The position numbers were made by a program, and so were the translations under genes. Positions 1 through 7,410 of a stretch of 36,100 nucleotides of DNA are shown in pieces (position 1 is the first letter of the stretch; each line of letters begins with the position of its first letter). Below the pieces are notes generated by a model. That model was not told where the DNA came from and did not search any database. It was given only the letters and a program-made list of their open reading frames with translations. The stretch comes from Candidatus Troglogloeales bacterium (GTDB taxonomy: Bacteria; Nitrospirota; Nitrospiria; SBBL01; SBBA01): contig SBBA01000174.1 in the NCBI GenBank assembly GCA_005239925.1, positions 1-36,100 on the forward strand, read 5' to 3'.

Positions 1-7
1 GCCCAAC
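1..7 (-). other. Putative attI/attC core site (GTTGGGC on the minus strand)
   Basis: Plus strand GCCCAAC matches RYYYAAC, i.e. GTTRRRY on the minus strand. It lies about 157 bp upstream of an intI-like gene in the expected orientation. Flanking cassette sequence is outside the window. Confidence 0.4.
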
Positions 8-41
8 AGAGCAATAAGCGGAAACTTTTCCATCATATTGC

Positions 42-75
42 CCAATATAGACGGAAAAAAATTCCGTGATATTGG
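42..75. repeat. Inverted repeat / hairpin upstream of intI
   Basis: CCAATAT-AG-ACGGAA-AAAAA-TTCCGT-G-ATATTGG: 13 paired bases with a small internal asymmetry. Confidence 0.75.
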
Positions 76-163
76 ATATTAAATAAACAAAAATAGAAAG
101 TCAAGTAAAAATTTGAACAATATATATCTAAATTTCCATCTATTATGATATAAATGACAAAAC

Positions 164-1165
164 ATGGAAAATAAAGAAAATAAGCCTAAGTTTAAACCAA
201 ACCCCTCCTTGAAATTAATGGATCAAGTGCGGGAGGTTTTGCGTTATCATCACTATGCCTATCGTACCGAATCAACATACGGTCAATGGATACTGCGTTA
301 TATCCGTTTTTATGGCGGGAAGACCCATCCCAAATTGCTTGGGGCCGGCGACGTTGAAAGGTTTTTATCCCACCTGGCGACAGAAGGGAAAGTTTCATCC
401 TCCACACAACGCCAGGCATTCAACGCACTGGTCTTTCTCTATCGCGATGTTCTTGATCGCCCCCTGGACGGGAAAATTACCCCCGCCCGTTCCAAAAAAC
501 ACCAGAGACCACCCACGGTTATGACGAAAGAAGAAGTACAACGCCTGCTCAAAATAATAGACGGAACACACGGCCTTATGGCAAAACTGCTCTACGGCTG
601 CGGCCTGCGCCTTATGGAGTGTGTCCGATTACGTGTCCAGGACATTGATTTTGGCCAGAACAAAATCTTTGTACGGGGCGGTAAGGGAGGCAAAGACCGA
701 ACAACCTTGTTACCCAAGAATATCAAGGAAGCGCTACAGGCGCATATGAAACGTGTTATCAACCTGCATCACAGCGATCTTCAAGAGGGTTTTGGAAAGG
801 TCTACCTGCCGGAGGCACTTGCCCGTAAATATAAAAACGCGGAACGAGAGACACGCTGGCAATATCTCTTTCCGGCCAAAAAAAGATCAATTGATCCACG
901 ATCGGGCCAGGAGATGCGACATCACATTTTAGAGTCGGGTCTTCAAAAGGCGGTGAAGTGCGCCGTTGAACAGGCCGGGATTTTAAAGCGAGTCAGTTGT
1001 CATACCTTTCGCCACAGTTTCGCTACCCACATGCTGGAAAATGGCGTGAATATCCGTGTGCTGCAGACATTGATGGGCCATGCCGATGTCAAAACCACCG
1101 AGATTTACACCCATGTCATGCAGCGCGACATAGAAAATATTGAAAGCCCCCTCGATCGGTTATAA
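164..1165 (+). CDS. intI: Integron integrase (IntI-type tyrosine recombinase)
   Basis: Tyrosine recombinase motifs (GLRLMECVRLR; HTFRHSFATH; GHADVKTTEIYTHV) plus the IntI-specific extra segment LHHSDLQEGFGKVYLPEALARKYKNAERETRWQYLFPAKKRSIDPRSG. Confidence 0.93.
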   Translation: MENKENKPKFKPNPSLKLMDQVREVLRYHHYAYRTESTYGQWILRYIRFYGGKTHPKLLGAGDVERFLSHLATEGKVSSSTQRQAFNALVFLYRDVLDRPLDGKITPARSKKHQRPPTVMTKEEVQRLLKIIDGTHGLMAKLLYGCGLRLMECVRLRVQDIDFGQNKIFVRGGKGGKDRTTLLPKNIKEALQAHMKRVINLHHSDLQEGFGKVYLPEALARKYKNAERETRWQYLFPAKKRSIDPRSGQEMRHHILESGLQKAVKCAVEQAGILKRVSCHTFRHSFATHMLENGVNIRVLQTLMGHADVKTTEIYTHVMQRDIENIESPLDRL

Positions 1166-1220
1166 AAACAATCGGAAGTTGTCGTCGGCTTAATCATCAT
1201 TGAACGCCCTTTATAAATCC

Positions 1221-2684
1221 CTACTTCACCACCGCAATCGTGCTGTTTTGGGCGTCAAGGCCATCTATTGTCGCGCCCAACTGGCTCATCTCCGTTACAT
1301 ACTCGATGATCTCCTCGGTCACCTGCTCCCCCGGCACAAGCAGGGGAATACCGGGCGGATAGACGGTTACAATCTCGGCACTGATTCTCCCCTTGGCCTC
1401 GGCCAAAGGGATATACTGCAACTCGCTGAAAAAGGCCTCACGGGGGGAAAGCCCGGCCGGCCTTCCAAAGGGGGGAAGCCCAATCTTTCCAAACGAAAAG
1501 GGGCGATTTCCACGGGACTCTTTCGCGATCTCTCGCAGGGCATCCACCAGACGATTGAGGTCGTCCTTGCGATCCCCAATACTAACAATGACCAACACAT
1601 TAAACGGGTCCGCCATCTCTACCTGAATGCCAAAACGGGTGTTCAACAACCGAGACACCTCATATCCTGAAAGGCCCAGGTCGCGCACCGTAATCGTCAG
1701 CTTGGTCACGTCAAGCCCACCCATGCCGCGAAATCGGGACTTGCATACCGCGCTGTCAAAACAGAAGAGACCTGGGGTCTTGTTGATCTTTTCCCGCGCC
1801 TCCTGCGCCAGTCGAATCGCCTTATCCAAAAGGGCCTTTCCTTCCGTCGCCATTTGCATACGGGCGAGATCAAGCGAGGCCATCAGGATATAAGACGGGC
1901 TGGTGCTTTGTACCAGTTTTAAAACGGCCGCCAGGGCCGTCATATCAACACGCGGCCCCTTGGCATGAAGCATGGAGGCCTGGGTCATTCCGCCGATAAT
2001 CTTGTGGGTGCTTTGCACCGCCAAATCCACGTCCACGTCCATGGCGGAGGGAGGCAAATCGGGGTGAAATCGCAAGTGGGGGCCGTGGGCCTCATCCACC
2101 AAAACCGTCAGACCCTTTTTATGGGCATAAGGAACAATCTCTTTGAGATCGGCGCAAATACCGTAATAATTCGGCGAGGTCAGTAGCAGCACTTTTGCCT
2201 GCGGATTGGCATCGATTGCAGCAAGGGTCGCCTCGGTCGTCACATTCAAGGTCATTTTCAATTCTTCATCCACCAGAGGGAGATAAAAGATGGGCTTCGC
2301 GCCCGAAAAAATAAGCCCGGCCATCACCGATTTGTGGGCATTCCTGGCAACCAGAACCGTATCGTTGGGGCTGCACGCGGTTAAGACCTGGGCGTGATTA
2401 CCGCCGGTCGTCCCGTTGATGAGAAAAAAGGAACGATCCGCGCCATAGGCCGAGGCCGCCAGTGTTTGCGCCTCTTTGATAACCCCCTTCGGGGCCTGCA
2501 GGGAGTCAACCTCATCTAATGTTGTGAGATCAATCGAAAAAATACGGGGGCCAACGAACTTTCGGAATCGGGTGGAGATGCCTTTTCCACTTTTATGACC
2601 TGGCGTGTGAAAGGAGACCTTGCGACTTTCGGCCAGGGCCACCATCGCGTCAAAAAGGGGTGTTTTAAACTGGTCTTCGTCCAT
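1221..2684 (-). CDS. Orn/Lys/Arg decarboxylase, PLP-dependent (probably biosynthetic arginine decarboxylase)
   Basis: FHTPGHKSGKG, INGTTGGNHA, VDEAHGPHLRFH and STHKIIGGMTQ motifs. The start is more likely the internal ATG (MDEDQF) than the ORF-track start, which lies in repeat sequence. Clustered with speE/speD. Confidence 0.9.
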   Translation of the reverse strand: MDEDQFKTPLFDAMVALAESRKVSFHTPGHKSGKGISTRFRKFVGPRIFSIDLTTLDEVDSLQAPKGVIKEAQTLAASAYGADRSFFLINGTTGGNHAQVLTACSPNDTVLVARNAHKSVMAGLIFSGAKPIFYLPLVDEELKMTLNVTTEATLAAIDANPQAKVLLLTSPNYYGICADLKEIVPYAHKKGLTVLVDEAHGPHLRFHPDLPPSAMDVDVDLAVQSTHKIIGGMTQASMLHAKGPRVDMTALAAVLKLVQSTSPSYILMASLDLARMQMATEGKALLDKAIRLAQEAREKINKTPGLFCFDSAVCKSRFRGMGGLDVTKLTITVRDLGLSGYEVSRLLNTRFGIQVEMADPFNVLVIVSIGDRKDDLNRLVDALREIAKESRGNRPFSFGKIGLPPFGRPAGLSPREAFFSELQYIPLAEAKGRISAEIVTVYPPGIPLLVPGEQVTEEIIEYVTEMSQLGATIDGLDAQNSTIAVVK

Positions 2685-2703
2685 GGGTACAGAATTAAGA
2701 ATC

Positions 2704-2873
2704 AAGAATCACGAATTACGAATAAAGAATAAAGGTCTCCTCTAAAAACCCCCTAAATCCCCCTTGTCAGGGGGACTTTTCAATCTGGAAGCCGTATTCC
2801 CCCCTGATAAGGGGGGTAGGGGGGTTGAGCCTTTAGTGTTTAAAGGTGCCCTAAAGCCTAATTCGTGATTCTT
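2704..2873. repeat. 15-bp inverted repeat (AAGAATCACGAATTA / TAATTCGTGATTCTT) flanking the family-1 element
   Basis: Exact 15-bp arms at 2704-2718 and 2859-2873 enclose the 2731-2855 element. Confidence 0.8.
2731..2855. repeat. Family-1 MITE-like palindromic element, copy 1
   Basis: aaaGGTCTCCTCTAAAAACCccctaaatcccccttgtcaggggga...ccccctgataagggggg...TTTAAAGGTGCCCTAAAG; nearly identical internal sequence to 33745-33869. Confidence 0.85.
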
Positions 2874-2902
2874 AATTCTTAACTTGCCTCCTTCTATGGC
2901 GA

Positions 2903-3823
2903 TCAATTATACGTAAATAAGGGAGCGTTATCCTCGATCACCCGCTCCTGCTTATCCATTGCCTGTCGAACCATTTTGGGAAGGACAAATTGACCCTGGT
3001 GGATCTCGCCATCATAATATTTCAACTCGGCTGAAATCCTTTGGGCAATCCGGTGATCCACCTCTTTGATCGTCAGTTCACGTGGATCATAGCGCTTCGA
3101 GGCCAGCGCAAACCCCCAGGGAAGCCCAAAAGAGGGGATGGAGGCATGATAACCCAAAACGATCGGGAAGACCTGCCGCAACGTTTTAAGCACAGCGGTG
3201 AAATTCAAAAGATTGTTGGCCGACGTGGTTCCCGCCTGAAGCGAAATAATGCCGTCCGGAGTGAGCCGTTCCATCACCAGGGAATAAAACTCCCTGGTGT
3301 AAAGCAGGTAAGCCGGGCCTTCCTCTACCGGCTCCGAAATGTCGATAATGATAATATCATACGTCTCGTTGGTTTCTTCAAGATAACGGCGTGCATCCAG
3401 ATGCGCCAACTCGGTCCTCGGATCATCAAAGGCCCCTTTACTCCATTGGGGAAGATGGTCTTTGCACAACGAGACGACCTCTTCATCAATATCCACCATC
3501 AGAACCTTCGTCACCGATGTGTGGTAGAGGATTTCGCGGAGTGTGGCCCCTTCCCCGCCGCCGACAATAAATACCTTTTTGGGGTTGGGATGGGTAAGCA
3601 GGGCCGGATGAACCAGGGCCTCGTGGTAGATAAATTCATCCACCTCGGAGGACTGCATCTTGCCGTCCAGCACTAAACAACGCCCGTAGCTGGCGGTATC
3701 GATGATTTCGAGCCGTTGATAACGGGTCTGTTTCGAGTAGACCATATTATCAATCCCATGGGCATGGGCCTCATGAGGCGAAAGGGCATCAAGAAACCAT
3801 TTGTAGATCTTCTGCTCGCTCAT
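2903..3823 (-). CDS. speE: Spermidine synthase (polyamine aminopropyltransferase)
   Basis: GGGEGATLREIL, VDIDEEVV and SEVDEFIYHEALVHPAL motifs; 306 aa; overlaps speD. Confidence 0.95.
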   Translation of the reverse strand: MSEQKIYKWFLDALSPHEAHAHGIDNMVYSKQTRYQRLEIIDTASYGRCLVLDGKMQSSEVDEFIYHEALVHPALLTHPNPKKVFIVGGGEGATLREILYHTSVTKVLMVDIDEEVVSLCKDHLPQWSKGAFDDPRTELAHLDARRYLEETNETYDIIIIDISEPVEEGPAYLLYTREFYSLVMERLTPDGIISLQAGTTSANNLLNFTAVLKTLRQVFPIVLGYHASIPSFGLPWGFALASKRYDPRELTIKEVDHRIAQRISAELKYYDGEIHQGQFVLPKMVRQAMDKQERVIEDNAPLFTYN

Positions 3824-4223
3824 TGCAGATATACCCTCCCTTTTCCGGTTTGTGCGGCAAGGCCTGATCCCTCAGAGATAATGTCCCCCGCCTCATTTCA
3901 ATAACGGCAGGGTTTTTTGATTGAAACTTCTCAACGAGGTAAGCCGCAGCGACGGAGGGCTGCAAGGTTTCTCCACAGGTAAAAACATCCACGGCGGCGT
4001 ATCCATATTCCGGCCAGGTATGAATGGAGATGTGAGACTCGGCCAGCACCACCACGCCGGTCAGTCCGTGAGGGCTGAATTGATGAAAGTGGGCGCCCAG
4101 CACGGTTGCCCGCGCGAGCTTGGCCGCACTCACCATCGCTTCCTTGGCCTTTTTTATATCGTCCAAAATCATTGTGTCGCAATCCCTTAACTCCACCAAC
4201 AAGTGTGTTCCTAACGCTTGCAC
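3789..4223 (-). CDS. speD: S-adenosylmethionine decarboxylase proenzyme, prokaryotic type
   Basis: ESHISIHTWPEYGYAAVDVFTCG includes the pyruvoyl self-cleavage site (E-S); small SpeD size. Confidence 0.94.
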   Translation of the reverse strand: MQALGTHLLVELRDCDTMILDDIKKAKEAMVSAAKLARATVLGAHFHQFSPHGLTGVVVLAESHISIHTWPEYGYAAVDVFTCGETLQPSVAAAYLVEKFQSKNPAVIEMRRGTLSLRDQALPHKPEKGGYICNERAEDLQMVS

Positions 4224-4294
4224 TCGATTTGCCCCCTTTCATATTCTTCCCTCTGTTTATCGCCTGCCCTCCAAGTATCAAAAACAGATATTTG

Positions 4295-4323
4295 TTTATT
4301 GCAGACTCACTCCCATTTGTCAA
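4295..4323 (-). promoter_or_regulatory. Candidate sigma70-type promoter for the speD-speE-decarboxylase operon
   Basis: Minus strand TTGACA (4318-4323), 17-nt spacer, AATAAA (4295-4300), upstream of speD. Confidence 0.55.
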
Positions 4324-4391
4324 TACATTTGGGAATTTTTTTTGGAAAATTTTTCCGCAGGCATTCGAGCGGATTTTATACGAGAAGCCAA

Positions 4392-4433
4392 GTGCACCTC
4401 TAACGCTTTCGTTAGTCAGTTTTTAGAGGTGCC
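4392..4433. repeat. Family-1 related short palindrome
   Basis: GTGCACCTCTAACG...TTTTTAGAGGTGCC shares the GCACCTCTAA terminal motif with family 1. Confidence 0.6.
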
Positions 4434-4463
4434 AGCAAAACCGGAGCAGACGCCAAATCGATG

Positions 4464-6041
4464 TTACAGACGCACCTGCTTAACCGCCAGCACGTTGGGG
4501 ATGGTGCGGATTTCCTTCAGAACCGATTCCGAAACCGCAACATCAATGCCGACGACCGAGATGGCCAACCCACCGGGACGCTCCCGCCCTAACTGCATGC
4601 GCGGAATATTGACCTGGTTCTTGGCCAAAAGATTGCCTAACCCGCCAATGACGCCCGGCTGATCGTTGTTCTGAATATAAAGCATGTCCCCCTCCGGAAC
4701 GATCTCAAGCGCCATCCCGTCAATCTCGACGAGCCTCGGCTCTGTCTTGTGGAAAATAGCGCCGGAAATCTTTTTTCTTCCAGAAGCGGTTTTGACCGTC
4801 ATCGTGAGCAGAGCGGCAAAATTACCTGCGTCGGCGGTCTTCGTCTCGGTCACATCAATGCCACGCTCCTTCGCCAGGGATGGGGCGTTGACGTAATTTA
4901 CCGTCTCGTTCACCATGGGCGCCAAAAGCCCTTTCAGGGCAGCCACAAAAATCGGCGCCGTTTGAAGCTCGGCAATCTCACCCAGATATTCAATATCAAC
5001 GGACTGCACCCCGCCTTCGACGGTCTGTCCAATAAAGGAGCCGATCTTTTCGGCCAACAGGACATAGGGAGAAACCTTGGGGATAAGGTCCAACGAAACC
5101 GAGGGGAGGTTCACCGCGTATCGCACCACGCCGCGTACCAGATAATCGACAATCTGGTTGGCAATCGCCAACGCGACGTTCTCTTGCGCTTCAAGGGTGG
5201 CAGCGCCCAGATGCGGCGTTGAGATAAAATTGTCCAACGCCAGGAGCGGATGACTCGGATCAACCGGTTCCTTCTCAAAGACGTCTGTTGCGGCCGCCGC
5301 AACCTTTCCGGATTGGAGCGCCGCCAGGAGGGCTGCCTCATCGACAATACCACCGCGTGCGCAATTGACAATCCGCACGCCGTCCTTCATTCTCGCAATC
5401 GCCTCTGCATTGATCATGTGTTTTGTGTCTGCCGTTAGCGGGGTATGAACGGTAATAATATCGGATCGGCTATAGAGGGTAGCCAGGTCCACCAACTCCA
5501 CACCCAGCTTTTCCGCGTTTTCAGACGAGAGAAAGGCATCGTAGGCCACCACGGTCATTCCGGCCCCTTGCGAAAGGCGGGCCACCCAGCTTCCAATCTG
5601 CCCCAGCCCAATAATGCCAATGGTCTTATTAAACAGCTCCATCCCCATAAACCGCTTTTTCTCCCATTTTCCGGCCTTGTTGGAGGCGGAGGCCTGTGGA
5701 ATCTGACGGGCCATGGAGAGAATCAGCGCAAAGGTATGTTCCGCCGTGGTGATCGTGTTACCGCCCGGTGTGTTCATGACCACGATACCGCGCTTGGTCG
5801 CCGCAGGAACGTCCACATTATCCAGCCCCGATCCGGCCCGACCAATCACCTTGAGGTTGGTTGCCGCGGCAATGACTTCCTTGGTAACCTTGGTATCGCT
5901 GCGAATCACGAGGCCGTCATATTGGCCGATTTCCTTAAGCAGTTGCTCGGGGGTCAGCTTTCCCTGCGTCACGGACAGTCCGCCCTTTTCTAAAATCTCC
6001 ACCCCTTGCTGTGAAACAGGATCGCTAATTAAAATCTTCAT
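4464..6041 (-). CDS. serA: D-3-phosphoglycerate dehydrogenase with C-terminal ACT domain
   Basis: GRAGSGLDNVDVPAATKRGIVVMNTPGGNT, GIIGLGQIGSWVARL, VNCARGGIVDEAAL; 525 aa long form. Confidence 0.96.
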   Translation of the reverse strand: MKILISDPVSQQGVEILEKGGLSVTQGKLTPEQLLKEIGQYDGLVIRSDTKVTKEVIAAATNLKVIGRAGSGLDNVDVPAATKRGIVVMNTPGGNTITTAEHTFALILSMARQIPQASASNKAGKWEKKRFMGMELFNKTIGIIGLGQIGSWVARLSQGAGMTVVAYDAFLSSENAEKLGVELVDLATLYSRSDIITVHTPLTADTKHMINAEAIARMKDGVRIVNCARGGIVDEAALLAALQSGKVAAAATDVFEKEPVDPSHPLLALDNFISTPHLGAATLEAQENVALAIANQIVDYLVRGVVRYAVNLPSVSLDLIPKVSPYVLLAEKIGSFIGQTVEGGVQSVDIEYLGEIAELQTAPIFVAALKGLLAPMVNETVNYVNAPSLAKERGIDVTETKTADAGNFAALLTMTVKTASGRKKISGAIFHKTEPRLVEIDGMALEIVPEGDMLYIQNNDQPGVIGGLGNLLAKNQVNIPRMQLGRERPGGLAISVVGIDVAVSESVLKEIRTIPNVLAVKQVRL

Positions 6042-6060
6042 TTTTTATTCTCCAATTTTC

Positions 6061-6160
6061 TAATCCGCCAACGGGCGGAAGCGAACGGAGCCCTCCCGTT
6101 GGTCGGTCTGGACATACCGATGTCGTTACACAAAAAATTATCTACACAAAAAACGTAGAT
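6061..6160 (-). repeat. Family-2 repeat copy A (upstream of serA)
   Basis: Minus strand ATCTACGTTTTTTGTGTAGATAATTTTTTGTGTAACGACATCGGTATGTCCAGACCGACCAACGGGAGGGCTCCGTTCGCTTCCGCCCGTTGGCGGATTA. Confidence 0.85.
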
Positions 6161-6181
6161 GTCACCAACAGAGAGTCTAAG

Positions 6182-6274
6182 GTAGGGGCACGTTGCAACG
6201 TGCTCCTACAAAAGACAACCACGCCCACAAGAGGGCACCACACCCAACAGGGCAACCAAGGGGGTTGCCCCTAC
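6182..6274. repeat. Family-3 palindromic element (GTAGGGGC...GCCCCTAC)
   Basis: 8-bp terminal inverted repeats with two inner hairpins (GTAGGGGCACGTTGCAACGTGCTCCTAC; GGGCAACC...GGTTGCCC). The right end contains the stop codon of the 6271-7410 CDS. Confidence 0.8.
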
Positions 6275-7410
6275 TTCTTTAGGAGGATCTCCTGGGCAAC
6301 ACCAACGCCAGTTCCCAGTTTTAACGGATGCCCCATGCCTTTTAACACCATCTCTACTGCAGCTACGGCGATAATAATATCAAACGTGTCTATATATCCC
6401 ATGTTGGCAATGCGAAAGACCTTGCCCTTCAGCTGATCCTGGCCGCCCGCAGCCGTAATGCCGTATTTGACCCGCAGGTCTTTATAAATTTTTTCTCCGT
6501 CATACCCCTCCGGCGCCTCAATCGCAGTGACCGAATCACTGGGACATTCCTTCGGATAGGGTTTGAGTCCGATTGCCTTCATTGCCTCTCGTGTCGCTAA
6601 GGCCAGTTTTGCGGAACGGGCAAAGATGTTAGCAAGCCCCTCTTCTTTCATCATCTTCAGCGACTGATCTAGTCCCACGATGAGGGAAACCGGCGCGGTA
6701 AAGGCGGTTTGATTGGTGGCAAGCGCGTCCTTTTCCTTTTTGAAATTAAAATAAAATTTGGCGTTCTTTGCCTTTTCCCCCTGTGCCCAGGCCTTGGGGG
6801 ATATCGAGACAAAAGACAGTCCAGGCGGCAGGGCCAGCGCCTTTTGCGAGCCGGCCACCATGATATCAATTCCCCATCCGTCGGTCTGAATATCGAACAC
6901 GCCTAAGGCACTGACCGCATCCACCACCATCAGACAGCCCGGATAGGCCTTGACGATCTCTCCGATCTCGCGGATGGGATGTGCTACACCGGTAGAGGTT
7001 TCGGAGGCCTGCACGAAGACACCCTTGATGGAGGGGTCTTTCTGCAACGCCGCCGTAATCTGATTAGGATTAACGACATGGCCCCATTCGACCATGATTT
7101 CTTCTACGATTACCCCATAGGCCTTACAGATTTTCGTCCATCGTTCTCCAAACTTTCCGCCATTGACGACCAGGGCATGATCCCCAGGAGAGAAGAAATT
7201 GGAAACCGATCCATCCATACCGCCGGTGCCGGTGGATGCCAGAATTAAAACATCATTTTGGGTTTGATAAAGCCATTTGATGTCCTCTGTGACCCGTTTA
7301 AACAAGGTCTGAAATTCAGGGGCACGGTGATGGAGGATGGGCTGGGCCATGGCCAACAGCACTTCGGGTGAGACCTGGGTGGGCCCGGGGGCCAAAAGAT
7401 ATCTTTTCAT
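6271..7410 (-). CDS. Class V aminotransferase (serine-glyoxylate / alanine-glyoxylate type)
   Basis: MKRYLLAPGPTQVSPEVLLAMAQPILHHRAPEF, VDAVSALG, GSQKALALPPGLSFVSIS. Adjacent to serA, consistent with serine metabolism. Confidence 0.9.
   Translation of the reverse strand: MKRYLLAPGPTQVSPEVLLAMAQPILHHRAPEFQTLFKRVTEDIKWLYQTQNDVLILASTGTGGMDGSVSNFFSPGDHALVVNGGKFGERWTKICKAYGVIVEEIMVEWGHVVNPNQITAALQKDPSIKGVFVQASETSTGVAHPIREIGEIVKAYPGCLMVVDAVSALGVFDIQTDGWGIDIMVAGSQKALALPPGLSFVSISPKAWAQGEKAKNAKFYFNFKKEKDALATNQTAFTAPVSLIVGLDQSLKMMKEEGLANIFARSAKLALATREAMKAIGLKPYPKECPSDSVTAIEAPEGYDGEKIYKDLRVKYGITAAGGQDQLKGKVFRIANMGYIDTFDIIIAVAAVEMVLKGMGHPLKLGTGVGVAQEILLKK

Follow-up and report, generated by a model that had tools for sequence, protein, structure and literature searches.

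A complete integron integrase and attI site at a contig end of a Candidatus Troglogloeales genome, the probable platform of a chromosomal integron

The left end of a contig from Candidatus Troglogloeales bacterium very probably represents the platform end of a sedentary-type chromosomal integron in a fragmented, metagenome-type genome. The window analyzed here is the entire 36,100-bp contig C232, so that base 1 marks the place where the assembly stops and nothing to its left is readable. It belongs to a genome of 258 contigs and 2.37 Mb (94% complete, contamination estimate 0.32%) and also carries rpoA, serA, speE and GspF/GspK genes. As judged from the geometry in relatives and from attC sites on other contigs of the same genome, a cassette array likely adjoins base 1; in the available sequence, the C232 attI has neither an attC nor a cassette attached to it.

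The first-pass annotation had called the intI product an integron integrase, which was borne out by a family profile, the nearest solved structure, a family-specific insert and phylogeny. In a profile search, the protein matched the TIGR02249 model (integron integrase) over its full length with 445.9 bits against a cut-off of 265 (8e-134), and Xer models scored below their own cut-offs. The nearest solved structure is IntI4 (VchIntIA; 2a3v, 4.8e-94). In a single alignment with IntI and Xer rows, the catalytic residues of the window IntI are intact, and every IntI row has an insert (~residues 206-232 and 239-249) where the Xer rows show gaps; this corresponds to the extra segment between catalytic patches on which the annotation had relied. 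A tree of 27 proteins, comprising IntI, own-genome Xer-type and other Xer-type recombinases, separated IntI from Xer with a support of 100/99, the Xer branches being long. In agreement with the annotation, the window IntI lies inside the IntI clade, apart from Xer, and groups with the proteins of Scalindua (L016) and Nitrospinota (L017) at 100/99, sharing 79% identity with each of them. By sequence, protein and sites look intact, and the window IntI may be catalytically active. Two further recombinase loci of the genome are of other types: C229 was set aside because its integrase remnant, which neighbours a tRNA-like sequence, is of the phage type and not an IntI, and two adjacent tyrosine recombinase frames (348 and 412 codons) at one end of C159 (L076 ~4138-6169) are Xer-like and not IntI.

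The predicted attI crossover core is read as GCCCAAC on the plus strand at 1-7, and its last base is window base 1. We aligned the intI leaders of the window, of a paralogue on contig C200 and of ten relatives. A conserved element of ~70 bp, common to C200 and to relatives from several phyla, extends as far as CTG^TTRRRY (or a near variant of it), and beyond this point the aligned leaders share nothing, as expected of different first cassettes. The core stands at the window's point, or 1-2 bases from it, in C200, L016, L017, L018, L020, L023, L024, L025 and L026; weaker cores were read in L054 (GCTATAC), L017 (GTTATAC), L019 (GTTATAT) and C200 (GATAAG). Since the element ends at the crossover in relatives, the window core rests on comparison and not on a 7-base match alone, and this boundary supports the earlier placement of a putative attI core at base 1, upstream of the divergent intI. 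The R' boxes of several own-genome attC sites read GTTGGGC or GTTGGGT. Within the element, GGAAA/TTTCC inverted repeats were found at 18-34 (imperfect) and at 51-67 (ACGGAA-N5-TTCCGT), together with an inverted repeat ATATTG-CC-CAATAT at 35-48. A second GCCCAA at 40-45, previously considered as a second att copy, forms half of the latter repeat and also belongs to another conserved motif (TATA..GGCAATAT). In relatives, this place departs from GTTRRRY and the alignment shows no conserved core, so that the copy is not a second att core. A pattern count did not bear out an operator motif that the window would have in common with the intI leaders of gammaproteobacteria.

Table 1 Features of the window and of cassette contigs of the same genome.
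Feature	Location	Position	Strand	Basis or remark
attI crossover core GTTGGGC, predicted cut G^TTGGGC; also contig end	Window	1-7	-	Sequence; aligned with C200 and L016-L026 cores
Conserved attI element with inverted repeats	Window	1-72	-	Alignment of window, C200 and ten relatives; paralogue 84-85% identical
intI, integron integrase, 333 aa	Window	164-1165	+	ORF, TIGR02249, structure relative, alignment, tree
IntI-specific insert part 1, ~residues 205-232, DLQEGFGKVYLPEALARKYKNAERETRW	Window	776-859	+	Alignment; not in Xer
IntI-specific insert part 2	Window	~878-913		Alignment
Group II intron reverse transcriptase/maturase (RVT_1 + GIIM)	C6 (L087)	5013-6167	-	Upstream end of cassette array
GGGTATAATCGGTTC leader stretch	C161 (L089)	3360-3640		
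GGGTATAATCGGTTC leader stretch	C6 (L087)	622-900		
GGGTATAATCGGTTC leader stretch	C10 (L104)	700-1000		
GGGTATAATCGGTTC leader stretch	C247 (L100)	1330-1600		

Elsewhere in the genome, we identified ~16 attC sites on seven contigs other than C232 (five on C200, three on C6, two each on C177, C148 and C10, one each on C161 and C247). A strict RYYYAAC/GTTRRRY palindrome scan recovered one good own-genome attC and almost none in relatives. Because of this poor yield, sites recognized by eye on C200 served as the start for a search at DNA level and for covariance models, three in number; taxon-specific attC models are an established approach (PMC8352920). As the models were trained on these by-eye own-genome sites, and R3 also on six sites of relatives, they lean to this site type. 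C249 and C254 gave weaker matches that were left out of the count, and C81:10723-10770 was rejected, having exact boxes but no match to any attC model. Two attC types recur in the genome, but the array is not linked to the C232 platform. Most ORFs beside an attC site share its orientation. The genes on the cassette contigs encode toxin-antitoxin, methyltransferase, Kelch and C39-peptidase proteins as well as a group II intron reverse transcriptase. Rfam gave no match in C200 12-20 kb or on the other cassette contigs; in particular, no RNA of a group II intron reached the gathering score. Some attC sites are isolated beside housekeeping genes, namely cutA on C161 and an ileS-like gene on C10.

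Two recurrent arrangements were observed on the cassette contigs. In four unlinked places, a long-type attC or an attC-like sequence is preceded by one and the same stretch of ~150-200 bp, which lacks ORFs and contains a promoter-like GGGTATAATCGGTTC. Moreover, L087 988-2734 and L088 323-1867 are look-alike two-gene cassettes, each encoding two secreted proteins in succession, of which the first is STN/FecR_C-like on C177 only and the second is of unknown family; their likeness, judged by eye, suggests a recurring cassette family.

The only attI of this genome with sequence beyond the crossover is that of a broken platform on the 27.1-kb contig C200. Its attI/intI leader is 84-85% identical to window positions 7-180, and its intI is present in fragments only, indicating a dead platform. 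The crossover coincides with the start of a repeated hairpin element that is also found on C177 and C237. This hairpin-rich repeat, GATAAGTGGACTGCC-TTC-GGCACTCCACTTATC plus flank, is 98-100% identical between C200 12996-13062, C177 2443-2509 and C237 6207-6259. Past the element follow ~10 kb of cassettes encoding a Kelch-repeat protein, a PemK/MazF toxin, an N6/N4 DNA methylase, a helix-turn-helix protein and a Phd antitoxin, reaching tsaD- and clpC-like genes that were assigned by eye from translations.

In relatives, cassettes can be read together with the platform. Model R3 (E up to 5) gave 18 matches in 39 named relatives and the window, none of them in the window. All 18 have the predicted side and strand, lying to the left of intI in minus orientation; six had been part of the training of R3, the other 12 had not. 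Behind the 79%-identical integrase, the Scalindua array (L016) holds at least six attC sites, and 9 of 10 left-side ORFs are antiparallel to intI. The first cassette of the Nitrospinota relative L017 is a glyoxalase-family gene. In a sample of 41 same-class genomes, intI scored above cut-off in 12 and attC-like sites were found in 36; five intI contigs carry 11 attC sites (three each on G005, G017 and G023, one each on G007 and G028), all upstream of intI and antiparallel to it. As to its gene content, the Scalindua array includes a TIR + NACHT/NPHP3-type STAND protein of 831 aa (442-2937, minus strand), likely a defence gene, and an HNH protein.

Contigs of relatives also break on this side of the integrase. 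The intI match begins less than 1 kb from the left contig end, i.e., the intI 5' side, in 25/41 relative contigs, and none of the 41 ends within 1 kb of the 3' side. This bias may be inflated, as the search peptide EIYTHVMQ sits at the IntI C-terminus and could favour C-terminal fragments; it persists among full-length integrases only (~9 versus none). A break inside the attI core was likewise seen in relative L024 (GTTA). Flank synteny of the window with relatives gave nothing except one serA match. The contig ends C161 (L089) 4872-4921 and C6 (L087) ~6227-6276 have a repeat in common, TCGAATGCGAATTTGCTCCAAAATGCATGAAAACAAAAAAAGACCGTCAC; the assembly may have broken at this repeat as well.

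According to our model, IntI would recombine attI, with the crossover G^TTGGGC at bases 7-1, with the folded attC sites that circular cassettes carry, and new cassettes would enter at the core, directly left of base 7, pointing away from intI. C232 most likely stops at the core owing to a fork in the assembly graph, caused by cassette variation in the population or by repeats in the array, and such a fork would have split the array over other contigs. The own-genome attC sites would be substrates of the window IntI. With cassettes on other contigs of the same bacterium, the locus most likely represents a chromosomal integron platform of the ordinary kind that lost its array in assembly.

The main rival is an In0, i.e., a platform that has its full integrase and attI but carries no cassettes, the attC clusters of the genome being separate CALINs and the contig end at base 1 resulting, for example, from low coverage or a repeat. 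The C232 attI shows no cassette, isolated attC sites do occur beside cutA and the ileS-like gene, and intI without an attC next to it, accompanied by attC clusters on separate contigs, has been reported from metagenome-assembled genomes (Ghaly et al. 2022, PMC9668308). However, C232, like L024, stops right at the crossover, cassettes are present at the homologous attI of the nearest relatives, L016 and L017, and the orphan cassette contigs C6, C148 and C177 have no known platform, so that we consider an In0 unlikely. A less probable variant is that the C232 platform is empty but active, acting in trans on small cassette clusters scattered in the chromosome. If true, the GGGTATAATCGGTTC leader with its attC on C161, C6, C10 and C247 would be a spreading landing/expression module.

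It is more doubtful still that the intI contig and the attC contigs derive from different organisms and were misbinned, the platform's own cassettes then being elsewhere. Cassette arrays are often of odd composition and bin poorly, and a genome in 258 contigs leaves room for such errors, but the contamination estimate is low, C200 joins the attI paralogue, attC cassettes and the tsaD- and clpC-like genes on one contig, and C10 joins attC sites to the ileS-like gene. Finally, a Xer- or phage-type recombinase beside a chance core is hardly conceivable: chance alone gives roughly one GTTRRRY-type 7-mer per kilobase of a given strand, but tree and family score already refute such an identity, the IntI-specific insert speaks against it, and the base-1 core is the homologous end of an attI element kept in relatives.

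The preferred reading, a chromosomal integron platform separated from its array, resembles the Vibrio cholerae superintegron (VchIntIA/IntI4) in the additional IntI insert, in the G^TTRRRY-core attI upstream of a divergent intI, in attC types that recur per genome, and in cassettes for toxin-antitoxin and unknown-function proteins. Unlike in that system, the window IntI falls into a Scalindua/Nitrospinota subclade with Desulfobacterota, Nitrospirota and others nearby, the attI carries GGAAA/TTTCC inverted repeats, and the array was not assembled with the platform. The locus likewise resembles the In0 elements and CALINs of metagenome-assembled genomes (PMC9668308) in that intI and attI lack an adjacent attC and attC sites lie on other contigs. 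In contrast to those, the window contig ends inside the core, so that a lack of visible cassettes need not mean that there are none. We found no paper linking integrons to Scalindua in particular.

Taken together, a complete IntI and attI can be placed in a little-studied lineage, and integrons are common at the level of its class. The analysis also points to a blind spot, as in fragmented genomes the attI side of intI is where contigs tend to break. Through such breaks, complete integrons would be scored as In0 elements and CALINs, and their cassettes would not be credited to the platform.
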